In this document: piece by piece, positions 7,738 to 62,542 of the stretch
How the letters are laid out: each line of letters starts with the position of its first letter
How positions within the stretch are numbered: position 1 is the first letter of the stretch
NCBI GenBank assembly: GCA_003553945.1
Contig: PWEL01000025.1
Span: 1-64,000, forward strand
Source of the DNA: Mollicutes bacterium
Lineage (GTDB): Bacteria; Bacillota_I; Bacilli_A; Izemoplasmatales; Izemoplasmataceae
DNA: 64,000 bases
Direction: 5' to 3'
Notes under the pieces: generated by a model
Seen by the model: only the letters and a program-made list of their open reading frames with translations
Database searches by the model: none
Told to the model about the DNA's origin: nothing
Position numbers and translations under genes: made by a program

Positions 7738-7746
7738 ACGGATAGA

Positions 7747-7903
7747 CATCTTCAGGGCAGGGTGAAACTCCCGACCGGCGGTACAGTCCGCGAGCGCAAG
7801 CTGAATGGGTGAGATTCCCATACCGACAGTCAGAGTCTGGATGGGAGAAGATGTGAACGCTTTGCTTTTTCTATGCCCTGAATGTCTTTTCAGGGCATTT
7901 TTC
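7747..7903 (+). promoter_or_regulatory. FMN riboswitch (RFN element) with terminator
   Basis: The aptamer spans 7747-7853, closed by CATCTTC/GAAGATG. It has the conserved RFN blocks AGGGTGAAACTCCC, GACCGGCGGTACAGTCCGCG and the GATTCCCATACCGACAGTC region. An intrinsic terminator follows: ATGCCCTGA (7873-7881) pairs with TCAGGGCAT (7890-7898) and leads into T residues. FMN binding is expected to stop transcription before ribD. The leader ends just upstream of the ribD start. Confidence 0.96.
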
Positions 7904-16404: not shown

Positions 16405-16458
16405 ATCGATTTTTGCGTGTAAAGGATATGTGATTATCCTTGATAGATAAAAATCGAT
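16405..16458 (+). repeat. Nested inverted repeat
   Basis: The outer arms ATCGATTTTT (16405-16414) and AAAAATCGAT (16449-16458) are perfect complements. Inside, AAGGATA (16422-16428) pairs with TATCCTT (16435-16441). No T run follows, so it is not a classic terminator, although it lies just behind the PHP gene. Confidence 0.6.
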
Positions 16459-16529
16459 TCTACAGCATCCATTCTTTTCAATCCCGAGAGAACAAGAGGC
16501 GGTCATTAAATATGGTCATCTTAAAAATT

Positions 16530-16583
16530 TGACTATGTTCTTAGGGTCGGGGGAGGTTGGTGCGCCCCAAATAAACATAGTCA
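16530..16583 (+). repeat. Inverted repeat around a G-rich loop
   Basis: TGACTATGTT (16530-16539) and AACATAGTCA (16574-16583) are perfect complements. They enclose a 34-base loop with a strongly purine/GC-rich core, which contrasts with the AT-rich surroundings. It could be a small RNA fold or a mobile-element end. Confidence 0.5.
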
Positions 16584-16831
16584 TATCATTCAAGTTTGTA
16601 GGATTCGCTCCGGAAGAAGCGGGTTTTATAAAAGGCATCTTACTTCTTATAATATATATTATGTTAACTTATTTGATTGTCTAAAGAAAGGTTTCAAGGG
16701 TATTTTCAGCGTAAATCATATTTTATAATGTTGCAATACGGTTGTCGAGTGACGGGTGTTAATATAATATCCGGATTTTTGATCTGAGCGTCGATGGTCC
16801 GTGAATTTATTATCTCCTGAACGTCTGGACA

Positions 16832-16840
16832 TGTTACAAT
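16832..16840 (+). promoter_or_regulatory. Extended -10 promoter of the asparaginase gene
   Basis: TGTTACAAT, with TG at 16832-16833 and TACAAT at 16835-16840; 19 bases before the start codon, so the leader is short. Confidence 0.55.
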
Positions 16841-16858
16841 AGCTTTTGAGGTGATGCT

Positions 16859-17845
16859 ATGAATCGTGTGGCGCTGATCTTTACCGGCGGGACGATCGGA
16901 ATGACTGTGACTTCGTCATCCGAAGGTGCGGTTCCAAGTCTGAGCGCTGATGATCTTGTTTCTACATTGAAAAAGGCCACTGGCCTTGAAAATCTCGAGT
17001 CTCATGAATTTTCAAGGCTTCCCAGTCCTCATATCACTCCTGGCCATATGTCCAGCCTCAAAGAAAAAATTGACACGTTTTTGAAGGATGACGAATATTC
17101 CGGCGTCGTCGTCGTCCATGGGACTGACACTTTAGAGGAGACCGCCTTCTATCTGGATGCTGTCAATGACAGTGAAAAGCCCATTGTGGTCACGGGATCG
17201 ATGAAAAACGCGAGCGAGCTCGGTTATGACGGCCTCACGAATCTCGCTTCAAGCATCAAGGTCGCTTCAGACCCCGAGTCTAGGAAACGCGGTGTTCTCG
17301 TGGTGATGCACTATGAGATCCATGCGGCCTGCGAAGTCGCCAAGACGCATACGTTAAGCCTCGATACCTTTAAAAGCATCGATTTCGGCCCCCTGGGCAT
17401 CATCGACGAGGATGAGGTGCTTTATTACAGGTCAATGGCTGTGAGAGCCGGTTACAATCTGGCGAACACCTTCTCCGAGGATGTAGCGTTGATCAGGGCA
17501 TACAGCGGCATAAAGCGCGATATCATCGATTTCTACATCAATGCAGGCTATAAGGGCCTCGTTCTCGAGGCGCTAGGACGCGGAAATCTCCCCCCCTCCT
17601 TCGCCGAGGGTATAAAAAAAGCCCGGGAAACGGGCTTGGAAGTCGTCATCACCTCCCGAGCGCCTTCCGGGCGGGTGCTCGACAGCTATGGCTATGAAGG
17701 CGGCGGGAAGGATCTTGTCCGACATGGATGCATCCTCGGCGGCCGTCTTTCAGGACCCAAGGCGCGGCTGCTTCTGATGCTGGGGCTCGGGAACGGGCTC
17801 GCCCACGCCGGCATCAAGCGTCTATTCCACACTTCGCCTTCCTAG
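16859..17845 (+). CDS. ansA: Type I L-asparaginase
   Basis: This 328-residue cytosolic-type asparaginase hydrolyses asparagine to aspartate and ammonia. The N-terminal catalytic motif TGGTIG (9-14, Thr12) and the second threonine motif VVHGTDTLEE (Thr89) are intact. No signal peptide is present. GAGGTG precedes the ATG. It is a single gene, and its stop codon lies inside the terminator hairpin. The symbol is by family similarity. Confidence 0.93.
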   Translation: MNRVALIFTGGTIGMTVTSSSEGAVPSLSADDLVSTLKKATGLENLESHEFSRLPSPHITPGHMSSLKEKIDTFLKDDEYSGVVVVHGTDTLEETAFYLDAVNDSEKPIVVTGSMKNASELGYDGLTNLASSIKVASDPESRKRGVLVVMHYEIHAACEVAKTHTLSLDTFKSIDFGPLGIIDEDEVLYYRSMAVRAGYNLANTFSEDVALIRAYSGIKRDIIDFYINAGYKGLVLEALGRGNLPPSFAEGIKKARETGLEVVITSRAPSGRVLDSYGYEGGGKDLVRHGCILGGRLSGPKARLLLMLGLGNGLAHAGIKRLFHTSPS

Positions 17846-17859
17846 GCGGAGTTTTTTTA
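17831..17859 (+). terminator. Terminator of the asparaginase gene
   Basis: ACTTCGCC (17831-17838) pairs with GGCGGAGT (17845-17852), then seven T residues. The stop codon falls in the loop. It also overlaps the 3' end of the minus-strand peptidase gene. Confidence 0.85.
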
Positions 17860-18996
17860 TGCATTCACTCCAGGGAGAATCGTTGTTTCAGGGGTTCTAG
17901 CGAGCTTCAGCACAAAGGCGCTTTTATCCGTTACATCTTCCAAGGTCTTCAGAACATCGAACGCCTGCCGCCTTCCAATTGCATAATACTGGACCATGAA
18001 CGGATCGAGGCTGCGGAATGAATCGAGTGTCCAGTAGTCAGGATGCTCGATGGGCATCAATTCTCCGTAACGTCCGGCGAATGCGGCTTCAGGGGCGGAC
18101 ACCCTGTCCCAGAGGTCGAGTTCAAAGAGTGCGCTCAGAGCGAGTCTCGAATACTCAAGTGCATTAACCTTTTCAATTGCATCGGGCTCTGTTTGTGTAC
18201 AAATTATTTGTATGAGGCAATGTTCGATGACGGTGGCCGCCATTTCATCGATCTGTGGAATTAAAAAATCATCCTGTGAATCCGACGCTCTTTCGATATA
18301 CAACAGCGCATGAGAAAGTTCGTGTAAAAACGTCTTGAGGGCGGCGGGATTCTCCAACGGTCTTGCATGCACATGGACTGATGCATCGGAAAATGTCCGG
18401 GCGAACCCGGCGATTCCTGCGGAGGATATGTGCAGTGTCAGACGGGATGCGAGGTCCGTCTTCAGGGCGTTTTCCACCTTGCGCAGGACATCTTCGGCAT
18501 CCAGGGCCTCATCGAAAGGCTCTATCCGGCGCAGGTCGTCGAAATAGGATTCCCAGGCGATGTTCTCTTCCCTCACAATGTCAAGGGCGTCATCGATGTG
18601 CGTCACTTTCACATCCTCGAGCAGTTCGCGCGCGGTGCCTTCATTGATGCCGCTTAGCGCAAGGATAAAGTCGGGGTAGTCATCGGCGCCCTCTCGCTGC
18701 GAGAGATGGGTGCGCAGCTGCATCAACTTCTCGACGACGGGGCGCATCGCGCGCGCCAGGGTGAGCAGGCTGTCCTTGGGGAGCCCTTCAAGCGTGTCCA
18801 GCTTGTCCTTCAGGGCGGAGACTTCCGGGTGTCTCTCGATGCGCGTGTAGCGCACGAACGGCGAGTCTTCCTCTTCATGCGCTTTATCATAGAGGTCGCG
18901 CTCAGTCTCGGCGAGCGAGACGTCCCTCTCTTCGATATAACGTGCCCACTCCTGCTTGTGGTGGGCGTACTGCGCGGCTTTGAATGCGGCGCTCAT
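17857..18996 (-). CDS. Divergent HExxH metallopeptidase, possibly M3-like
   Basis: This 379-residue protein is not assigned to a known subfamily. It has a zinc-protease motif HELSHALLY (225-233) and a downstream acidic candidate ligand in IDEMAATVIEH (Glu251). Its helical layout and C-terminal MVQYYAIGRRQAFD block recall the M3 (oligoendopeptidase F) fold, but the usual HEFGH sequence is absent. The N-terminal third is charged and helical. There is no signal peptide, so it is cytoplasmic. It overlaps ruvA by four bases (ATGA), so the two are translated together. An ImmA/IrrE-type protein was considered and judged less likely because of length. Confidence 0.7.
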   Translation of the reverse strand: MSAAFKAAQYAHHKQEWARYIEERDVSLAETERDLYDKAHEEEDSPFVRYTRIERHPEVSALKDKLDTLEGLPKDSLLTLARAMRPVVEKLMQLRTHLSQREGADDYPDFILALSGINEGTARELLEDVKVTHIDDALDIVREENIAWESYFDDLRRIEPFDEALDAEDVLRKVENALKTDLASRLTLHISSAGIAGFARTFSDASVHVHARPLENPAALKTFLHELSHALLYIERASDSQDDFLIPQIDEMAATVIEHCLIQIICTQTEPDAIEKVNALEYSRLALSALFELDLWDRVSAPEAAFAGRYGELMPIEHPDYWTLDSFRSLDPFMVQYYAIGRRQAFDVLKTLEDVTDKSAFVLKLARTPETTILPGVNA

Positions 18997-19553
18997 TTGC
19001 TTGCGATCTCCCGGAGCGCATCCTTGATCAGCTCGGCGGTGCTCTTCTTACGGTCGAGTTTCTTCGTAGCGCGCTCGATCTCCTTGTTCTTGTAGCCGAG
19101 GGCCCTGAGTGCATCCTCGACTTCATCGAGTTTCCGCTGTGCCTTCACCGTGAGTCTGTCGGTCTCGACTTTGCCTTTCAAATCGAGGACGATCTGCTGG
19201 CTGGCCTTGGGCCCTATGCCGGGGAAACGGTTGAGATACTTCGCATCCGATGTCTCGATCGCCTTGATGATCTCATCGACCTCGGCGGCGGCGATCAGGG
19301 CGAGGGCGCTCTTCGGACCGATGCCCTTGACAGAGAGCAGCTGGTCGAACAGGCGTTTCTCCCTGAGGGAGGGGAAGCCATAGAGTGTATGGGCGTCCTC
19401 GCGGACATGCTGGTAGACATAGACCTTTTTCTCCGAGCCCTGTTCGAACTCAAAGGGATTGGGGACGACGATATGGAAACCGATCCCCCCTACATCGAGC
19501 GTGACCTTTTCCGGCTCGATCTCCGTGACAATGCCTTGCAGATAGCTATACAT
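18993..19553 (-). CDS. ruvA: Holliday junction DNA helicase subunit RuvA
   Basis: RuvA binds four-way junctions and directs the RuvB motor. The 186 residues show the N-terminal OB fold (MYSYLQGIVTEIEP), two helix-hairpin-helix motifs (LLSVKGIGPKSALALI; RFPGIGPKASQQIV) and the small C-terminal domain III. ruvB, normally the next gene, is missing; a peptidase-like gene is coupled here instead. The start follows AAAAGGGAGTGG. Conservation is clear throughout. Confidence 0.95.
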   Translation of the reverse strand: MYSYLQGIVTEIEPEKVTLDVGGIGFHIVVPNPFEFEQGSEKKVYVYQHVREDAHTLYGFPSLREKRLFDQLLSVKGIGPKSALALIAAAEVDEIIKAIETSDAKYLNRFPGIGPKASQQIVLDLKGKVETDRLTVKAQRKLDEVEDALRALGYKNKEIERATKKLDRKKSTAELIKDALREIASK

Positions 19554-19587
19554 ACGCAGCCACTCCCTTTTAGTTTGTGTAGGAACT

Positions 19588-20991
19588 TTAAGTGATGGTG
19601 CTGAACGTCAGAACGATTATTACATAGATGACGACCGAGATGAAATCGGATATAGAATGCATCATCGGCGCGCCGAACAGCGCAGGTGTTGTCTTTCTCC
19701 GCCGGAACCAAAGCGGCAATGCGGCGGCGAGCATAGAGGCCACGAGGCCGCTTAAAGCGACACTCGCGGCGATGATCATGGCGAACTCAATGCTGGAGAG
19801 GGACCCGGTGAGCGCTTCAGGGTCAACATTCGAAACCCCCCACGCAAGCAACAGGGCCAGAGCGCCGAGAAAGACTGCGGTCAAGGCCGTCACTGTGGTC
19901 TCTTCCAGGAAATAACGCATTTTCGCGCCGGCGGGCCTGAGCACATGACGCCGGACCTTCACGATCGATTGCGCGAGGGACTGTGATGTCAAATGGTTGC
20001 TGGTGGCGAGCACGAAGGGCAGGAACGCGACAAACAGCCAGACATCGCTGAAGTGCGCGTCCAGGAGGAAAAGCAGTCCCGAGGCCGCGAACAGCCACGC
20101 CATCATGACAAAAAACCATGGCAGGCGGCGCTTCAGGTGTTTTGAGGCACTCTCGAACACCGCATCGCCGGTCGGTAGGCCGCTATAGCGGTCGGTGTCG
20201 GCGAGCGCAGATTCCTCGACGACGTCGATGGCGTCGGTCAGCGTCAGGACACCCTCGATGCTCTGCTTTTTATTGATGGCCGGGAGGACATGAAGATTGT
20301 ATCTGTCCATCATCTCGACGGCGTCATAGATGTTCGCCTCTGTAAACACGAACCGGTATACATCGGTCATGACATCGCGCAGCACACTTCCTTTGGAAGC
20401 ATCCAGGAGTTGCTTGAGCTCGACGATGCCTTCGAGGCGATTCGCTTCATCGACAATGAACAACGTATCTATGGCCTCGACCTCTTCAGCATTTTCATGA
20501 AGCGCCTTGAACGCCTCGGATACAGTGGTGTCGGGCTCGAGAGCGATGAAATCGGAGGTCATCTCGCTGCCGACGGTGTGGTGCTTGTAGCTCGAAAGCC
20601 TGCGGAGCGCGTTACGATGATCATGCTTGATAAGCGCCATGTATTCGATGGCATCCTTGTGTCTCATCGACTGCAGGATGTCGACAGCGTCATCCGGCGC
20701 CATGATCTCGAGGAGTTTAGCACCGTAGGCGACGGATACATCATTCAAAAGCTCCCTCGCCTTGCGTTCGGGCAGGTGTGCGAATACATCGGCGAGCGTC
20801 TTTTCATTCAGATAGTCATAGAGGCGTGCGCGCTCGGCGTGGCGCATCATCAGCAGCGCCTCTTTCAAGTCGTATGGGTGATACTTGTTCAAGCGGGTCC
20901 GGAGAATGTTGTCCCGCCGCTCATGCTTGATAAGGCCGTGGATCTCCGCTGATTTATTCCGGCTGAGGCGTGTCAGCTTGCGTTTTCTCAT
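19588..20991 (-). CDS. MgtE-family magnesium transporter, second tandem copy
   Basis: This 467-residue protein has the MgtE plan: an N-terminal superhelical domain, a CBS pair (about 135-255) and five C-terminal membrane segments. The acidic pore residue expected in the last helix is present (MMHSISDFISVV). The usual glycine/asparagine loop near the second helix is altered to LATSNHLTSQSL. The start overlaps the upstream mgtE stop by four bases. It is clearly diverged from its neighbour, which suggests paired or specialised subunits rather than a recent duplication. Confidence 0.88.
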   Translation of the reverse strand: MRKRKLTRLSRNKSAEIHGLIKHERRDNILRTRLNKYHPYDLKEALLMMRHAERARLYDYLNEKTLADVFAHLPERKARELLNDVSVAYGAKLLEIMAPDDAVDILQSMRHKDAIEYMALIKHDHRNALRRLSSYKHHTVGSEMTSDFIALEPDTTVSEAFKALHENAEEVEAIDTLFIVDEANRLEGIVELKQLLDASKGSVLRDVMTDVYRFVFTEANIYDAVEMMDRYNLHVLPAINKKQSIEGVLTLTDAIDVVEESALADTDRYSGLPTGDAVFESASKHLKRRLPWFFVMMAWLFAASGLLFLLDAHFSDVWLFVAFLPFVLATSNHLTSQSLAQSIVKVRRHVLRPAGAKMRYFLEETTVTALTAVFLGALALLLAWGVSNVDPEALTGSLSSIEFAMIIAASVALSGLVASMLAAALPLWFRRRKTTPALFGAPMMHSISDFISVVIYVIIVLTFSTIT

Positions 20992-30661: not shown

Positions 30662-31921
30662 TCACGATGTCATGAAACGTCGGAGGGCACTGATGAAATA
30701 GAGCGACCCGGTCGCATAGAGGATGGCGTTCTCGCCATCCGGTCTGGCATGTTCATAGGCCTCCCTGTAATCCTTGAAAGCATGGACGTTGTTGTGGTCG
30801 CTCTGTTCGGCGAGGACATCCGCTTTCTCGCTGCGCGGATAGGGGATCTCCGTCACATAGAGTTCGTCCGCGAACGTCTCGATGCGCTTGAGCATCGGGA
30901 CATACGCTTTATCCTTCATCACATTGAAGAGGATGCGGATCGTCGCATCGGGATAATAGGTGCGGAGCGCTTCAAGGCTCCTCTCAAGGCTGCTTATGTT
31001 GTGGGCGCCATCGAGGATGACATTGCCGAATCGTTCAAAGCGGCCGGGAAGGTGCGCCTTTTCAAGCCCTTTTTTCTTAGCCTCAAGCGAAAGGTGGAAA
31101 TCATCGCGTTTAGCGAGGATATCAGCGGCTAAGAGTGCCGTATGGGCGTTTTCAACCTGATGCATGCCGAGCATGGATACATTGTAGCGTTCATTCCTAT
31201 AGACGATGACAGTGGGAAGGCCGAGGTCGACGTGTTCAAGGGGGTAATCCTTGGTGAAGTAGACCGGGCTTTTCTTGCTTTTCGCATGCGAACGGAACTG
31301 TTCTAGAAGGACGGGGTCCTTGACGCCGCTTACGAGCGGAACGCCGTCCTTGACAATGCCGAGCTTGTTCTCGGCGATGCTCTCGAGCGTATCGCCGAGA
31401 ATGTGCATGTGGTCGTATCCGACGCTCGTGATGACACTCAGGACAGGCGAAATGACATTCGTCGCATCGAGCGTGCCGCCGAGGCCGACTTCATAAAGGA
31501 CCACATCCACATCGGAGGCCTTGAAATAGAGAAAACTGATGAGCGTCACCATCTCGAAAAACGTGATCTGATCGTTGTAACGCTCCTTGTAGGACGCCTG
31601 CAGGGTGTAGACCTCTTCGATGTAATGCTTCAGGGCGTCATTTGGAATCGGAGCATCATTGATGGCGATGCGTTCGTTGAAGCTTACAACGTAGGGGCTC
31701 GTGAAGGTGCCGACGTTGTAGCCGGCCTCCATGAGCATCTGTTTTAAGAACGTGAGGGTCGAGCCCTTGCCGTTCGTCCCGCCGATATGGATGGTCTTGA
31801 AGCTGATTTCGGGATGCCCGAGCATCTCGCAGGCCTTCTGCATGCGCGTGAGGTCGTATTTATCGCCGAACTTCTTGACTGATTCAATCCAGGACTGCGC
31901 GTCTTTCAAAGTATCAAACAT
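30662..31921 (-). CDS. folC: Folylpolyglutamate synthase / dihydrofolate synthase FolC
   Basis: FolC adds glutamate to folates using ATP. The 419 residues contain the P-loop GTNGKGS near 47, the SPYVVSFNERI block and a C-terminal glutamate ligase domain. The start at 31921 lies inside the valS end (8-base overlap), so the two are coupled. folP and folK are not in the window, so its share in de novo synthesis cannot be judged. thyA and folA lie about 20 kb away. Confidence 0.94.
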   Translation of the reverse strand: MFDTLKDAQSWIESVKKFGDKYDLTRMQKACEMLGHPEISFKTIHIGGTNGKGSTLTFLKQMLMEAGYNVGTFTSPYVVSFNERIAINDAPIPNDALKHYIEEVYTLQASYKERYNDQITFFEMVTLISFLYFKASDVDVVLYEVGLGGTLDATNVISPVLSVITSVGYDHMHILGDTLESIAENKLGIVKDGVPLVSGVKDPVLLEQFRSHAKSKKSPVYFTKDYPLEHVDLGLPTVIVYRNERYNVSMLGMHQVENAHTALLAADILAKRDDFHLSLEAKKKGLEKAHLPGRFERFGNVILDGAHNISSLERSLEALRTYYPDATIRILFNVMKDKAYVPMLKRIETFADELYVTEIPYPRSEKADVLAEQSDHNNVHAFKDYREAYEHARPDGENAILYATGSLYFISALRRFMTS

Positions 31922-34517
31922 CGCGTCTGAGTTCCTCGATACGCTTCTTGACGAGCGCATGTTCTTTTTTATAGCGTTCGAGCTTCCTGCGTTCTTCTTC
32001 GACTTTCTCCTTCGGGGCCTTCTCGACGAACTTCTCATTGCCCAGCATGCCCTCGGCGCGCTTGATCTCGCCTTCGAGCCGCTTGAGTTCTTCGCGCTGC
32101 CGCTCGAGCTCGGCGCTTAGGTCGACGAGGTCTCCGAGGGGGATATAGAGCGTGAAGCGGGCGTCGACGAAGGAGACGTTCTCCTTCTGCATCTCGATGT
32201 CCCGAGCGATTTCAAAGCGTCCGGGCGTGATGAAGGCGTCGAAGAGCTCGCGGTGCGCGGTGAGGATCTTCTCCGTGTTTGCATCGCAGGCGATATGGAT
32301 ATCGACCGGCTGACTGTTCGCGACCTGGTATTCATTGCGGACCTTGCGCACGCGATGAATCAGGGCTTTCACGATGTCGAACTGCTCGACGGCCTCCTCA
32401 TCCCTGATGAATGCATCCGCTTCAGGCCAGGGGGCGACCATGATCGATTCGGCGTCGCGCACGGGGAGGCGCTGATAGATCGATTCCGTCACGAAGGGCA
32501 TGAACGGGTGCAAGAGCTTGAGCACGGCGCGCCACACGTGATAGAGCACGGCTTTCGTGGCCGATTTCTCCGTACCTTCCTTCCTGAGAGCGAGCTTGCT
32601 GACTTCGACATACCAGGAGGCGACCTCCTCCCAGCTGAATTTATAGAGGTCCTTCGCGGCCTCGCCGAATTCAAAGGCGTCGTACTGGCGGTTCACCGCC
32701 TCGATGGTCTCCTTGAGACGCGTGAGGATCCAGCGGTCCTTGACATCCAGGGCGTCAGGGTCGATGCGTGCGTCCTCCTCGCTCATGTCCTCGATGTGCA
32801 TGAGGGTGAAGCGGGAGATGTTCCAGAGCTTGTTGATGAAATTCCAGCTGGATTCGACCTTCTCCATCTCGAAGCGAAGGTCCTGCCCGGGGGCGGAGTT
32901 GGTGGTGAGGAAATAACGGAGCGTGTCGATGCCGTGGCTCTCCTTGATGTCCATGGGGTCGACGCCGTTACCGAGGGACTTGCTCATCTTGCGGCCGTAG
33001 CGGTCGCGGATGAGGCCGTGGATGAGAACGTGTTTGAACGGTGTCTCGCCGGTGAACTCGAGGCCCTGAAAGATCATCCGGGCGACCCAGAAGAATATGA
33101 TGTCATAGCCCGTGATCATCGTCTGTGTGGGGTAGTAGCGTTTGAAATCCTCGGTCTCTTCAGGCCATCCGAGCGTAGAGAAGGGCCAGAGCGCTGAAGA
33201 GAACCAGGTATCGAGGACATCCTCGTCCTGTTCGTACCCTTCGGGCGGATTGTCACCGACATAGACATCGCCGTCCTCGCTGTAGTAGGCCGGAATGCGA
33301 TGCCCCCACCAGAGCTGTCGGGAGATGCACCAGTCCTGCACCTCCTCCATCCAGCGGCGGAAGGTCTTCTCGAAACGGGACGGGATGAACTCGGCAGCTG
33401 AATGTTCGAGCGCCTGATCCGCGAGCGGCCTCATCCTGACGAACCACTGAAGGGAAAGTCGCGGCTCGACGGGGACGCCCGTGCGTTCGCTGTGACCGAC
33501 GTTATGCACATGGTCCTCGACCTTCTCGAGGAGGCCTTCATCCTTTAAATCATCAAGCAAAGCCTTCCGGCACTCGAAACGATCCATGCCCTCATAAGGG
33601 CCGGCCATGTCGTTCATGCGGCCGTCCTCCTCCATGCATAGCGGTTTCTCAAGGTCATGGCGCTCACCCACCTCGAAGTCGTTCGGGTCATGTGCGGGGG
33701 TGACTTTGACGGCACCGGTGCCGAACTCCCTGTCGACCTGTTCATCGGCGATGATGGGGATGGCGCGCTCCGTCCCCGGAATCAGAACCTTTTTCCCGAG
33801 ATGCTTGCGCCGTTCACTATCATCAGGGTGGATCATGAGCGCGGTGTCGGCAAACATGGTCTCCGGACGCGTGGTGGCGATCAGGATGTAATCGCTCTTG
33901 TCCTCGAGACAGTAACGGAAATAATAGAGCTTGTCCTCCACTTCTTCATACTCGACTTCGATATTGGAGAGCGCGGTCTTCGCCTGCACATCCCAGTTGA
34001 TGATGCGGGCCTTGCGGTATATGAGCCCTTTCTCATAAAGGCGGATGAATACTTCGTTGACCGCACTGGAAAGCCCTTCATCCAGCGTGAACCGCTCCTT
34101 GTCGTAATCCACGCTGATGCCGAGGGCCGCCCACTGCGAGCGGATGATATCGGCGTAGCGCTCCTTCCACGACCACGCCTCTTCTAAAAACGCCTCGCGT
34201 CCGATTGCGCGCGGGTCGTCACCGCGCTCGCGGATCAGTGCGTCAATCTTCGCCTGTGTGGCGATGCCGGCATGGTCCATGCCGGGGAGATAGAGCGCAT
34301 CATAGCCTTCCATGCGCTTCTTGCGGATGATGAGGTCCTGAAGAGTGTTGTCCCACGCGTGTCCGAGGTGAAGGTTCCCCGTGACATTCGGGGGCGGGAT
34401 CACAATCGTATAGGGAGGCTTCTCAGAATCCCCGCTTTTGAAGAACCCCTGCTTCTTCCACCATTCATACGTGTCCGCTTCTACTTGTTTGTGCTCATAC
34501 TTCTTCGCCATGTCCAT
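31914..34517 (-). CDS. valS: Valyl-tRNA synthetase
   Basis: ValS charges tRNA-Val. The 867 residues have the class I motifs PPPNVTGNLHLGHAW (HIGH type) and [12 protein letters not shown], an editing domain between them, the anticodon domain and the C-terminal coiled coil (about 800-867) typical of ValS. AGGAGG precedes the start. The gene is under T-box control and is followed directly by folC. Confidence 0.97.
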   Translation of the reverse strand: MDMAKKYEHKQVEADTYEWWKKQGFFKSGDSEKPPYTIVIPPPNVTGNLHLGHAWDNTLQDLIIRKKRMEGYDALYLPGMDHAGIATQAKIDALIRERGDDPRAIGREAFLEEAWSWKERYADIIRSQWAALGISVDYDKERFTLDEGLSSAVNEVFIRLYEKGLIYRKARIINWDVQAKTALSNIEVEYEEVEDKLYYFRYCLEDKSDYILIATTRPETMFADTALMIHPDDSERRKHLGKKVLIPGTERAIPIIADEQVDREFGTGAVKVTPAHDPNDFEVGERHDLEKPLCMEEDGRMNDMAGPYEGMDRFECRKALLDDLKDEGLLEKVEDHVHNVGHSERTGVPVEPRLSLQWFVRMRPLADQALEHSAAEFIPSRFEKTFRRWMEEVQDWCISRQLWWGHRIPAYYSEDGDVYVGDNPPEGYEQDEDVLDTWFSSALWPFSTLGWPEETEDFKRYYPTQTMITGYDIIFFWVARMIFQGLEFTGETPFKHVLIHGLIRDRYGRKMSKSLGNGVDPMDIKESHGIDTLRYFLTTNSAPGQDLRFEMEKVESSWNFINKLWNISRFTLMHIEDMSEEDARIDPDALDVKDRWILTRLKETIEAVNRQYDAFEFGEAAKDLYKFSWEEVASWYVEVSKLALRKEGTEKSATKAVLYHVWRAVLKLLHPFMPFVTESIYQRLPVRDAESIMVAPWPEADAFIRDEEAVEQFDIVKALIHRVRKVRNEYQVANSQPVDIHIACDANTEKILTAHRELFDAFITPGRFEIARDIEMQKENVSFVDARFTLYIPLGDLVDLSAELERQREELKRLEGEIKRAEGMLGNEKFVEKAPKEKVEEERRKLERYKKEHALVKKRIEELRRDV

Positions 34518-34532
34518 CTTGCATTCCTCCTA

Positions 34533-34753
34533 TAAAAAACGCCTTATGTCAAAAGACACAAGGACGAAACTCTGTTCGCGGTACCACCTTTATTCCGGCT
34601 TCGTGCCGGCGCTCGAGACGTTAACGCCGTCGACGGGTCCGACTACGTATCACCGGACCACTCCGAGGTGACGTTCAACGGTCCGTCTACCGGTTCGCAG
34701 CTCCACCGGCTCTCTTCAAGACTTACCCGCCTACTCTTCCTCATCTTCGTGTT
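34533..34753 (-). promoter_or_regulatory. T-box leader of valS, specifier GUC
   Basis: The minus strand carries the T-box sequence AAGGTGGTACCGCG (34578-34591) and an upstream AGAGAGCCGGTGG stem I distal motif. A terminator CCTTGTGTC/GACATAAGG ends in a T run (34534-34562). The specifier-loop context GTCACCnnnGAG places the Val codon GUC at 34670-34672. It matches the ileS leader position for position, where the codon is AUC. Uncharged tRNA-Val should favour antitermination. Confidence 0.95.
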
Positions 34754-34759
34754 ATTCGT

Positions 34760-34797: not shown

Positions 34798-34830
34798 GAA
34801 AAAAGCGCGGAATGTATCCGCGCCTTTTTA
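34798..34830 (-). terminator. Terminator of the pseudopilin gene
   Basis: GCGCGGA (34805-34811) pairs with TCCGCGC (34817-34823). On the minus strand it is followed by a T run and begins at the stop codon. Confidence 0.85.
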
Positions 34831-35958
34831 ATCGATGCGCTCCCAGGGGTGCCCGGGTTCGCCATGATTGGATTGCGGAGGGTCTCCCTCCGTCCAGTAC
34901 TGAGCCACAAAACGGTCGCCGCCATGTGTGACTTCATCGCCTTCTTCATAGATAGAATTCGGATGCCATTGTTCAGTGGATGATGCTTGCCACACTAGGC
35001 TTTGATCCGGACGGTCGCCTTGACTCCACCATGAAGCTTCATAAGAACTCCCCTGATATACGACTTCATCGCCGGCCTCATAGGTGTTATAGTAGCGCCA
35101 TTCATCGGTCAGGGCCTGCCAGCTGTAGGACGCTTCCGGCGATTCGCCTTGGTTCCATTCGTGGGCCTCGTATGTCTCCCCTTCATAAATGACTGTATCT
35201 CCGGCATCATAGGTGTTCGTAGGATGCCATTCACTAGTGAGGGCATTCCATGCATAGGAGTCAGAGGGAGGTTCTCCTTCATTCCAATATTGTGCACGGT
35301 ACAATGTCCCCTCATACTCTATTTCATCGCCTTCTTCATACCAATTATGTTGATGCCAGTTGTCGGATACGGCCTGCCAGACGGGGTCGGTCCCCGGTTC
35401 CGTCCCCTCTGTCCACCATTGGGCATAATAAACCGTGCCATTGTGGATGACTTCCTCGCCTTCTGTGTAAGTTGTTTCAGTAGACCATGATGAGGCTTCC
35501 TGATCGCTTTCTTCGTCTTCATCGGGAATTGCGGGAGTATGCTGTGCACGATGGACATGGTCCTGCTCACCGCTCGAAGGGACCTTTCCTGAAACGATGC
35601 GAATGCCATCCTCATCATAAGGGAATGACAATTCACCCTCCTTGGCGTATACGACTTCGAAGGCCCGCAGGTTCTGCACGCGGACAAAATAGGCATAATC
35701 ATCCTCAATGTTATTCACGAAGTCATCCAGTTGAGACTCCAATAAGACATCTCCTGTTTCGCAGCTATGATGCCCTATGCTTCGGCAGTACTCGCCCGCG
35801 GCATATTCAATCTCCCGGGCCTGCTGGAGCACGGTGTCCTTCTGGGTGTTCTCAAGAGTCCTCGACGCTACGGGGTAGGACACCCCTGCAACGATCGCAA
35901 GCAACACGATGACGATCAGAACTTCAAAAATCGTCAGTCCTTTTTGATTCAAAGCCAT
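34828..35958 (-). CDS. Type IV pilin-like protein with five CBM5/12-like carbohydrate-binding repeats
   Basis: This protein of about 376 residues begins with a prepilin leader and methylation motif, QKG then LTIFE, plus the hydrophobic helix VLIVIVLLAIVAG, which suits cleavage by a prepilin peptidase after the glycine. A short pilin-like head (about 30-125) has two cysteines. An acidic linker (about 130-157) leads to five tandem repeats (158-196, 201-240, 244-283, 287-326, 331-374). Each has W, then YxxGD/E, a V-x-Y/H-x-G strand and A-x-W/Y-W-x-E/Q-G, the ChiC/CBM5-12 pattern that binds chitin or similar glycans. The start is uncertain: ATG 35967, ATG 35958 or TTG 35952, the last with the best spacing to GGAGG. 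No other pilus genes are in the window. Confidence 0.85.
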   Translation of the reverse strand: MALNQKGLTIFEVLIVIVLLAIVAGVSYPVASRTLENTQKDTVLQQAREIEYAAGEYCRSIGHHSCETGDVLLESQLDDFVNNIEDDYAYFVRVQNLRAFEVVYAKEGELSFPYDEDGIRIVSGKVPSSGEQDHVHRAQHTPAIPDEDEESDQEASSWSTETTYTEGEEVIHNGTVYYAQWWTEGTEPGTDPVWQAVSDNWHQHNWYEEGDEIEYEGTLYRAQYWNEGEPPSDSYAWNALTSEWHPTNTYDAGDTVIYEGETYEAHEWNQGESPEASYSWQALTDEWRYYNTYEAGDEVVYQGSSYEASWWSQGDRPDQSLVWQASSTEQWHPNSIYEEGDEVTHGGDRFVAQYWTEGDPPQSNHGEPGHPWERID

Positions 35959-35968
35959 CTCCTCCATG

Positions 35969-35991
35969 GCGCAGCTATTAAAAAGCTGCGC
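35969..35991 (-). repeat. Hairpin next to the pseudopilin ribosome binding site
   Basis: GCGCAGCT (35969-35976) and AGCTGCGC (35984-35991) pair perfectly around a 7-base loop. It lies between the riboswitch candidate and GGAGG. It has no T run, so it is more likely to influence translation or mRNA stability than to end transcription. Confidence 0.6.
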
Positions 35992-36002
35992 ATTCGATTG
36001 AA

Positions 36003-36072
36003 TGGAAGCTGGCTGTCTCGATGAGACCCTCTAGCTTTCCGCCGCCGGGTCACCCCGGTTTTGGCTTTGGCA
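36003..36072 (-). promoter_or_regulatory. Candidate c-di-GMP-I (GEMM) riboswitch
   Basis: On the minus strand CCGGG-GTGA-CCCGG forms a stem with a GNRA tetraloop. It is followed by the linker GCGGAAAGCTA, close to the GEMM consensus ACGCAAAGCYA, and then a stem of the form GGGTCT...AGACAGCC, the usual tetraloop-receptor side. These parts occur in GEMM order. The outer closing pairing and two linker bases deviate, so the ligand could differ (cAG variant) or the element may be divergent. Position upstream of a pilin gene is typical of GEMM targets. Confidence 0.55.
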
Positions 36073-36084
36073 TTTTAATATAAT

Positions 36085-36111
36085 ACTATATCATACTGAA
36101 CGAGTTGTCAA
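36085..36111 (-). promoter_or_regulatory. Promoter of the pseudopilin transcript
   Basis: A perfect -35 box TTGACA (36106-36111) overlaps the engB stop region. TGATATAGT provides an extended -10 (TATAGT at 36085-36090). The spacer is short (15 bases). Confidence 0.5.
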
Positions 36112-36692
36112 GCTCCCTCTCTCAATGAGGCGCTGTCTTCGGTGAAGATTCCGCGGACTTGCTCGACATTCATCCCATCCTTCGAGAAGGGGATGACGTC
36201 GATGTCTTCGGTGAAATGGGACTCGAGGCGCTCGATGTAGTGCTTTCGCCTGCCCTTGGAGATCTTGTCCGTCTTGGTGGCGACGATGGTGAAGGGGACG
36301 TTGTGATGCGCTAGGTATTCAGCCATCAACAGATCGTCCTCGAGGGGCGGATGCCGGAAGTCCACAAGCAAAAGGGCGTGTCTCAAGACACCACGGGTGG
36401 CGATATAGGTCTCGACCATCTCGCCGAAGGTCTCGCGCTCGCGCTTGCTCTTCTTCGCGTAGCCATACCCCGGTGCGTCGACGATATAGAAGGCGCGGTC
36501 GACACGGTAGAAATTGAGCGTGCGCGTGCGCCCGGGCTTCTGGGAGATATAGGCGATATTGCGGTTCAGGACGGTGTTGATGAGCGTGCTCTTGCCGACA
36601 TTGCTTCTGCCGAGGAGGAGATATTCATCGAGGCCGTCCTCGGGGAAATCCGACGGCGTGGCGACGATCTTCGGCTGTTCGACTTTGTACAT
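36108..36692 (-). CDS. engB: Ribosome biogenesis GTP-binding protein EngB (YsxC)
   Basis: EngB is a TrmE-Era-type GTPase needed for 50S assembly. The 194 residues show G1 GRSNVGKS (28-35), G3 DAPGYGYA and G4 TKTDK. It follows lon, the usual Firmicute order. The short gap between them holds a hairpin and the ribosome binding site. Full length. Confidence 0.96.
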   Translation of the reverse strand: MYKVEQPKIVATPSDFPEDGLDEYLLLGRSNVGKSTLINTVLNRNIAYISQKPGRTRTLNFYRVDRAFYIVDAPGYGYAKKSKRERETFGEMVETYIATRGVLRHALLLVDFRHPPLEDDLLMAEYLAHHNVPFTIVATKTDKISKGRRKHYIERLESHFTEDIDVIPFSKDGMNVEQVRGIFTEDSASLREGA

Positions 36693-48061: not shown

Positions 48062-48190
48062 TAAAAAAGGGGTCCGCCTAGGAACCCCTCTGCTTGTGAA
48101 AGATTGCTTCCTACGCTGGCATTACCCAGATCAGGTTGGGTCCATTCTAGTATCAAGAATGTCTCAGCCTAGTACTCTAAGCTCCCCTTA
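48062..48190 (-). promoter_or_regulatory. TPP (THI-box) riboswitch with terminator
   Basis: On the minus strand GGGGAGC...GGCTGAGA, GACCC, ACCTGATCTGGGTAATGCC and AGCGTAGGAAGC occur in THI-box order (about 48106-48188). A terminator with AGGGG/CCCCT arms and a T run covers 48063-48090. Thiamine pyrophosphate should repress thiT. Confidence 0.96.
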
Positions 48191-48206
48191 TTTTATGGAC
48201 ATGTTC

Positions 48207-52194: not shown

Positions 52195-53694
52195 TCAGGT
52201 TTCAATCATCCGCTTCATATTTTCATCGCTTCCCGTGCGTCGCTTTCTCTTTTCATCATAGAGCCTTCTGTCGGCGCGGCGGATGGTGTGTTCAAGGGGT
52301 TCCTGTCCAGAACGCCTCGCTGTCCCGATAGAGACGGGGATCTTGTCGCGGTCCTTGTCGCAGGAACGCCGGATGGCATCGGCAAGTGCTTCGAGTGTCG
52401 TTTCATCCGTCTCGACGACGGTGATAAGGAACTCGTCGCCACCATGACGGATGATGTCCGCATCCATTTCATCCGGCACAACTTCCTTGAGAACATGTGC
52501 GTAACGTTTGATTATTGCATCCCCGGCACGATGCCCTTGGGTATCATTGATTCTTTTCAGACCGTCGAGGTCCGAGACCACAACGCCAAAGACAGTGTCC
52601 GAGGCATCATGTTTCTCTTTCAAGGTTTCAAGGTAGTTGCGGTTGTAGAGACCGGTCATTATGTCCGTGTTCTTCAGATATTCGAGCTGGTCGATCAATG
52701 TCACGAATGCCGTCTCGTCGTAGAGAAGGAAGAGCCTCCCCTTCGTGCCATAGATATTCGGCAGCACGATAGGTTTTTCAATGACGTATAGGTAGGGCTT
52801 GTCATGGCGTTTGTCTTCAAGGGCGTTGATATCATCATAGAGCACGGCCCGCTCTGAAAGTTGAGCAGTGAGATCGGAAAGGTTGCGCGCATCGAGATTG
52901 AAACGCTCTGTGAGCGCATCCGAGCACTCGATGACCCTGTCGTCCTCCGTCGCGAAGACATACATTTCGCGCATGGCGCCGAGCAAAGTCTTTCTGCCTT
53001 CACGGCGGAGCGCGTAGTGCGGGTCCCTGCGAAAAACGACAACATAGAGGAGCACGCTGAAAAGCACAACGGCAAGATAGGTCGGGTCGACATAAAAGGT
53101 ATAGAAAAAGACATGTATGACATTCAAGATCACGGCTGCTACAATCGCGACACCGAACACCAGCATCGATTTCCGCCGCAGAAAGCACACACCGCTCGTG
53201 AAGCGATAATAGACAAGGCCTCCTAACGCCGATGTCAACAGAACGTACGACAACGCAGTATGGACATAGAAGAAAACACCCTGCGAGGCCTCGCGCACAT
53301 CTTCGAGCGTCGCCGCATTCGCCATGCTCATGCCGAGCACCCAACCATGGAGGTCATTCGTGAGTTGCACGAGAAGATGACCCGCAATGACGAGGATTGC
53401 CGCCTTGTCAATCCAGGCGGGGAAACTGACATCCATGTAGTGAAAGACAGTCCGGAAACCGTAGTAGGCGACAGTGAGTACGACGGTATAGATGAGTAGC
53501 TGGGCAATATAAGCCCCTCCGCCCGTGGGGACGATATGCTTGAATAAAAGCAACCATGACCAGAGCGCGATGGCGAATACAAAACGCCTCAGATAACGAA
53601 ACCGTACGTTATCCATGTAGGAAAAAAGGTGCACGGCAGGAACGAAGCTTATAAACGCCGCCACAAGGAGAAGGCCTGTCTGGAAAGACACCAT
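52195..53694 (-). CDS. Membrane diguanylate cyclase (GGDEF) with 7-TM sensor
   Basis: This 499-residue protein has seven predicted membrane segments (5-27, 35-53, 62-80, 98-115, 140-163, 177-200, 205-221), a PAS-like region (about 242-330) and a C-terminal GGDEF domain with intact motif RHGGDEF (416-422). This predicts c-di-GMP synthesis from GTP. The inhibitory RxxD site is replaced by EMDA (409-412), so product inhibition at that site is unlikely. No EAL or HD-GYP gene is in the window. It has its own promoter behind the ssb terminator. Confidence 0.9.
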   Translation of the reverse strand: MVSFQTGLLLVAAFISFVPAVHLFSYMDNVRFRYLRRFVFAIALWSWLLLFKHIVPTGGGAYIAQLLIYTVVLTVAYYGFRTVFHYMDVSFPAWIDKAAILVIAGHLLVQLTNDLHGWVLGMSMANAATLEDVREASQGVFFYVHTALSYVLLTSALGGLVYYRFTSGVCFLRRKSMLVFGVAIVAAVILNVIHVFFYTFYVDPTYLAVVLFSVLLYVVVFRRDPHYALRREGRKTLLGAMREMYVFATEDDRVIECSDALTERFNLDARNLSDLTAQLSERAVLYDDINALEDKRHDKPYLYVIEKPIVLPNIYGTKGRLFLLYDETAFVTLIDQLEYLKNTDIMTGLYNRNYLETLKEKHDASDTVFGVVVSDLDGLKRINDTQGHRAGDAIIKRYAHVLKEVVPDEMDADIIRHGGDEFLITVVETDETTLEALADAIRRSCDKDRDKIPVSIGTARRSGQEPLEHTIRRADRRLYDEKRKRRTGSDENMKRMIET

Positions 53695-62323: not shown

Positions 62324-62536
62324 AATAAAAAAAGCACCTAGACAAAGGACGAACGGAAGTCCGCGGTACCACCTTTATTCTAGCCGCCTAGCACTCGTTC
62401 CTTTAACGCAGGAGGCGGAGGCGCCTTTCGACGCCCCATCTCCACGGTGATACCCTTCCGGCTTTGTCCGGGTTCGCAGCGCCACCCGGTCTCTTGTACA
62501 AAGGACTCGAAAGAGCGTGTCCGCTTCATTGATGTT
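62324..62536 (-). promoter_or_regulatory. T-box leader of ileS, specifier AUC
   Basis: The minus strand carries AAGGTGGTACCGCG (62362-62375), the stem I element AGAGACCGGGTGG with GAACCCGG, and a T run at the end (about 62324-62332). The specifier-loop context ATCACCnnnGAG places the Ile codon AUC at 62449-62451. It aligns with the valS leader, which has GUC at the same place. Confidence 0.95.
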
Positions 62537-62542
62537 AATGGT

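Follow-up and report, generated by a model that had tools for sequence, protein, structure and literature searches.

A gene within the 64-kb window (the whole stretch of DNA analysed here) appears to encode an adhesive type IV pilin that is induced by c-di-GMP and displays chitin- or glycan-binding CBM5/12 modules, a reading to which we give a probability of roughly 0.7 on the evidence of sequence. At high c-di-GMP the leader RNA would fold round its ligand, so that no terminator forms and transcription from the gene's own promoter goes through; PilD would then cut the prepilin, and PilB and PilC, whose genes lie elsewhere in the genome, would build it into a surface filament, in tip or shaft position. 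The filament would display five CBM5/12 modules and so attach the cell to chitin or to a different polymer of GlcNAc or glucan type. Sequence establishes the gene with its domains, the riboswitch aptamer and the assembly genes. We call the product the CBM-pilin.

The CBM-pilin open reading frame (P0001) occupies 34828-35967 on the minus strand, 379 aa counted from the first ATG, and the plus strand across the same interval is closed, with no ORF. An earlier sequence-only reading had extended the feature to 36111, which proves to be exactly where the -35 box begins. We prefer TTG at 35952 as the probable true start because GGAGGAG lies six bases ahead of it, whereas the first ATG overlaps GGAGGAG. 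Read in the direction of transcription, the features are as follows.

36083-36111, minus strand: sigma-70-type promoter TTGACA-17-TAGTAT, from sequence
36001-36075, minus strand: c-di-GMP-I riboswitch aptamer RF01051, 49.9 bits (gathering score 35), E 9.1e-7
35980-36010, minus strand: candidate terminator, -8.4 kcal/mol, with an overlap between its 5' arm (AGCU) and the 3' strand of P3 in the aptamer
35969-35991, minus strand: second hairpin, GCGCAGCU...AGCUGCGC, which takes the 3' arm of the candidate terminator
35959-35965, minus strand: Shine-Dalgarno sequence GGAGGAG
35938-35952, minus strand: probable true start TTG (35952) and prepilin leader MNQKG, from sequence, Shine-Dalgarno position and N_methyl
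35548-35937, minus strand: pilin module, in which a small globular part containing Cys61 and Cys69 comes after a hydrophobic alpha-1 helix
35377-35487, minus strand: CBM5/12 module 1, AQWWTEG, residues 161-197, 35.6 bits
35248-35361, minus strand: CBM5/12 module 2, AQYWNEG, residues 203-240, 23.8 bits, alone under the cut-off of 26.2
35119-35232, minus strand: CBM5/12 module 3, AHEWNQG, residues 246-283, 37.4 bits
34990-35103, minus strand: CBM5/12 module 4, ASWWSQG, residues 289-326, 33.1 bits
34843-34971, minus strand: CBM5/12 module 5, AQYWTEG, residues 333-375, 31.9 bits
34805-34823, minus strand: hairpin and T-run after the stop codon, from hairpin scan and sequence

The last of these was detected on the plus strand, and its reverse complement is likewise a hairpin followed by T; because such a hairpin with T-run follows the stop codon, the gene is probably monocistronic. 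Its neighbours, both on the minus strand, we take from their sequences to be ysxC/engB (36108-36692) and valS (31914-34517), the latter preceded by a T-box leader (34557-34756). Other RNA elements in the window are an FMN riboswitch (7744-7856, plus strand), a second T-box leader (62342-62538, minus strand) and a TPP riboswitch (48090-48198, minus strand) that only just passes threshold (54.5 vs 54.3).

The N-terminus has the makings of a class III signal: a short leader ending in Gly, Glu at +5 and about 20 hydrophobic residues. Cleavage is predicted after the G of MNQKG, leaving a mature protein that would start LTIFE with Glu at +5. Profile searches bear out the prepilin-type N-terminus first proposed from the letters alone, with scores above cut-off for both Pfam N_methyl (24.5 vs 21.2 bits) and NCBIfam TIGR02532 (19.6 vs 16.3). 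Alignment of seven pilin modules shows Glu+5, two cysteines and an SFP motif common to all, the cysteines being the invariant Cys61 and Cys69. The predicted model contains a helix (13-64) and strands (91-115) in a block with pLDDT of about 59-86, within a whole-protein model of moderate quality (mean pLDDT 68, pTM 0.41).

For the remainder of the protein, the proposal of five CBM5/12 repeats held up, since Pfam CBM_5_12 matches five stretches (E 2.9e-33, 114.1 bits for the whole protein), four of which exceed the curated cut-off individually. The AxWW pattern said to run through them is found in modules 1 and 4, the only two with a WW aromatic pair; its place is taken by YW in modules 2 and 5, and in module 3 by EW, without the first aromatic residue of the pair. 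The closest solved relatives by sequence are the chitin-binding domains of chitinases (2d49, E 4e-7). Structure prediction had been suggested as a check when the repeats were first described. The predicted modules superpose on 2d49, the model matching it with a TM score on the target of 0.74 and 43 columns at 1.4 A; no pilin is among the 50 matches listed when the CBM-pilin model was searched against solved structures. Neighbours in sequence, and in fold among the matches listed, are mostly binding domains of chitinases and chitin deacetylases. CBM5/12-like folds also occur in phage fibres among those structure matches, a caution that the ligand may be a glycan other than chitin.

No catalytic domain was found in the CBM-pilin. 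A search for GH18, the one chitinase family sought, found it in none of the six genomes of the genus and in just 3 of 49 family genomes, a scarcity that favours surface holding over chitin digestion. The device had been proposed to serve adhesion or substrate capture: of the two, substrate capture is the less supported, given the six genomes lacking a GH18 match, and adhesion gains support from the c-di-GMP-I riboswitch and from the relatives in which the CBM-pilin gene lies inside a pilus cluster.

The promoter and aptamer sit between ysxC and the CBM-pilin gene, and the aptamer was recovered again in a wider c-di-GMP-I search. In three related genomes (G003, G005, G006) the CBM-pilin genes are likewise preceded by a c-di-GMP-I aptamer (54.6 and 48.5 bits, and 60.5 bits for RF03167) and by TTGACA, a spacer of 17-18 bases and a second hexamer like that of the window gene. 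The order of promoter, aptamer, some 40 bases and pilin is kept in all three with conserved spacing, and this same leader cassette is found despite flanking genes that differ among them and the window. A c-di-GMP-I match was not found upstream of two further relatives (L046, L054), and the riboswitch is therefore not universal.

Downstream of the aptamer in the three relatives, a hairpin followed by T (-16.0 to -21.5 kcal/mol) starts within the aptamer's last helix (AGCCAGCUGC...). Because this terminator uses the aptamer P3 strand, aptamer and terminator should be mutually exclusive, and an ON switch is predicted; c-di-GMP would turn the CBM-pilin gene on. The sign is less certain in the window itself than in the relatives. 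There the candidate terminator is weak and imperfect, and the competing second hairpin, which uses bases in common with it, adjoins the Shine-Dalgarno sequence. A simple terminator scan reported a terminator in L061 (G003) and none in the window or in L047 (G006).

The fusion of pilin and CBM5/12 is also present in L044/L061 (G003), L045/L060 (G005), L046 and L053 (G022) and L161 (G080). A scan of genome contigs succeeded with a two-sequence alignment; the same scan with P0001 alone returned no relative, nor did a scan of viral contigs. N_methyl and CBM_5_12 occur in combination in the window gene, L044, L045, L046, L053 and L161, with the N_methyl score of L044 (19.9) under the 21.2 cut-off. 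Two copies, L047 (G006) and L054 (G018), end at contig ends with the pilin part and the beginning of a repeat visible, and the incomplete L047 gives no CBM profile match. Bacterial Ig-like domains stand where relatives have CBMs in L048 (G015), so the C-terminal module is swapped. L053 (1595-3043), the second CBM-pilin of its genome, is another pilin type with a minor-pilin-like N-terminus. Matches in plasmid and phage collections are confined to the CBM region or parts of it, and are annotated mainly as polysaccharide monooxygenases or carbohydrate-binding proteins, or carry no annotation. Recent horizontal acquisition was considered and set aside, the pilin module being conserved over several genera of the family.

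Two other genera provide a link, through gene order, between the CBM-pilin and the pilus machinery. In G080 the gene (L161) lies directly after pilC, beside a gene like the relatives' last minor-pilin-type gene; in G022 (L046) the CBM-pilin gene has three minor-pilin-type genes on one side and, on the other, the gene found ahead of pilB in relatives. The window's own genome has one PilB-type ATPase (T2SSE with MshEN), one PilC (T2SSF) and one prepilin peptidase (PilD), so that genes for the assembly system presumed to lie elsewhere do exist, with three more pilin-like genes near pilB and pilC. Neither finding named in advance as refuting the proposal, a lack of any CBM5/12 profile match or of a pilus ATPase or prepilin peptidase in the genome, was thus made. 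The only matches to PilB, PilC and PilD are on contigs other than that of the CBM-pilin, and a motif search of the 64-kb window found no second pilin-like ORF, in agreement with the original remark that no other pilus genes are within it. At locus L041, which carries PilB with its MshEN domain (16429-18117), the pilin gene after pilC (19543-20000) runs off the contig end. We do not claim c-di-GMP action through the MshEN domain, because the Gln of both binding motifs (PMC5013675) is replaced, by eye, by Arg and Ser.

The bacterium probably makes c-di-GMP, because its genome encodes 14 GGDEF domains. One of these is within the window (52195-53694, minus strand), in a HisKA_7TM and GGDEF protein that is a possible diguanylate cyclase. 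Matches to c-di-GMP-I occur in 48 of 61 genomes searched, the window's included. Among 65 family sites examined, a pilin-like ORF is downstream of 11, three of them with recognised CBM repeats, counts that follow a crude motif rule and are indicative. At other family sites the sequence downstream encodes an MreB protein, or small secreted proteins with a SipW-like signal peptidase alongside. SipW-type proteins with CBM5/12-like repeats occur in G004, G028 and G001 (profile match for G004 and G001), and the counterpart in the window's genome has no such repeats. It is about an even bet that free-living, apparently wall-less Mollicutes run a c-di-GMP attachment programme through class I riboswitches that turn on an MreB-type actin, surface proteins of SipW type and modular pilins that bind chitin, and that CBM5/12 arrays have been shuffled between these pilins and the SipW-type proteins.

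Some of these loci have features of their own. The SipW-type secreted proteins of L049 (7157-8002), L050 (1480-2322) and L051 (3699-4553) have CBM5/12-like repeats inserted, and both their ends resemble, by eye, a 140-aa CBM-less protein of the window's genome. An MreB-type protein lies behind c-di-GMP-I riboswitches at nine loci (L107, L108, L110, L112, L113, L121, L122, L136, L144), with a profile match at L110 only. A second c-di-GMP-I locus of the window's genome (L043, 7566-12745, G000 contig C7) has three aptamers, two in tandem, preceding small secreted proteins that, where tested, had no match among Pfam and NCBIfam families; nearby are another pilin, a protein of GGDEF/HD-GYP type and a SipW-like signal peptidase.

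The genome assembly is 1.17 Mb, 64% complete and fragmented (48 contigs). A soda-lake sediment study described 16 Tenericutes MAGs in the NB1-n group, similar to Candidatus Izimaplasma (PMC6146748), and a soda lake is the presumed habitat of the window's organism. The CBM-pilin is strongly acidic (76 D+E vs 16 K+R), as would be expected for a haloalkaliphile. A penicillin-binding transpeptidase was sought in 49 family genomes, 20 of them at least 90% complete, and found in none, which is consistent with a wall-less cell insofar as this one wall gene is indicative.

Four other explanations bear on different parts of this reading. The prepilin segment might only anchor or export the CBM array, making the protein a membrane-anchored pseudopilin-like surface adhesin without a long pilus. 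The gene does lie apart from other pilus genes in the window, G003, G005 and G006, the C-terminal part exceeds the pilin part in size, and no second T2SSE (a PilT-like retraction ATPase) was found in the 64%-complete genome. We nevertheless think this improbable, as Glu at +5 and the long alpha-1 helix are conserved, the gene in G080 directly follows pilC and that in G022 is inside a pilus cluster, and Streptococcus sanguinis PilB, which also bears a bulky module, is a pilus component (PMC8179133). Still less probable is an OFF switch, with pilin made at low c-di-GMP: c-di-GMP riboswitches of either sign are known (PMC6366702), and the window leader has its second hairpin beside the Shine-Dalgarno sequence together with a weak terminator, but the strong terminator of the three relatives takes the aptamer P3 strand, and a ligand-bound aptamer would exclude it. 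That pilin and CBM parts were joined through mis-assembly or an accident of frame might be entertained for an assembly in 48 contigs, and is refuted to the point of near impossibility by independent genomes: other species and genera have the same fusion with a pilin module like this one, and three of these genomes share the leader of the window gene.

The remaining alternative concerns the ligand only and is compatible with both pilus and switch: the modules would bind matrix glycans, made by the cell itself or by a neighbour, for biofilm cohesion, instead of environmental chitin. It draws on the search that found no GH18 in the genus, on the occurrence of CBM5/12-like folds in phage fibres and on family c-di-GMP-I sites before small secreted proteins beside a SipW-like peptidase, some with CBM5/12, an arrangement that resembles biofilm fibre loci. 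Set against these are the chitinase and chitin-deacetylase binding domains that dominate the sequence and fold neighbours, and the canonical aromatic pair retained in modules 1 and 4; we consider this ligand unlikely, if by a smaller measure than the readings above. The c-di-GMP-induced adhesive pilin, for its part, predicts a sugar-binding pilus made only at high c-di-GMP. It indicates elaborate pili and c-di-GMP signalling in bacteria without a detectable penicillin-binding transpeptidase, and its CBM array could be a multivalent chitin binder for laboratory use.

The fusion had been called unusual, and is less isolated than was supposed: modular pilins are widespread, one survey reporting more than 1,200 such proteins in 264 architectures from monoderms and diderms (PMC8179133). 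CBM5/12 is not named in that survey's text on the 15 commonest architectures, and no description of a pilin-CBM5/12 fusion was recognised in the literature searched, which was covered in part. S. sanguinis PilB (vWA) and PilC (lectin) resemble the CBM-pilin in having the binding module C-terminal to the pilin module (PMC8179133, PMC9934059); the CBM-pilin differs in its tandem array of five CBM5/12 modules and the c-di-GMP riboswitch ahead of it. Chitinase CBM5/12 domains (S. griseus ChiC, 2d49; Serratia ChiB) are alike in sequence and fold at the level of the single module, but are attached to enzymes, whereas the CBM-pilin has five repeats and no catalytic domain that we could find. Vibrio cholerae GbpA is, to our knowledge, not a pilin. 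Its likeness to the CBM-pilin is one of adhesin type and riboswitch class, with no whole-protein homology claimed: it is a GlcNAc/chitin-type adhesin under positive control by Vc1, a class I c-di-GMP riboswitch (PMC4744006). In Clostridioides difficile, c-di-GMP turns on the type IV pilin gene pilA1 through antitermination at Cdi-2-4, which unlike the riboswitch described here is of class II, and pilA1 is a major pilin whose account includes no CBM modules (PMC6366702). Precedents thus exist separately for modular pilins, for pilins switched by c-di-GMP and for a chitin adhesin under such a switch; as far as could be checked, the combination of all three in a single gene of a bacterium of this kind is new.
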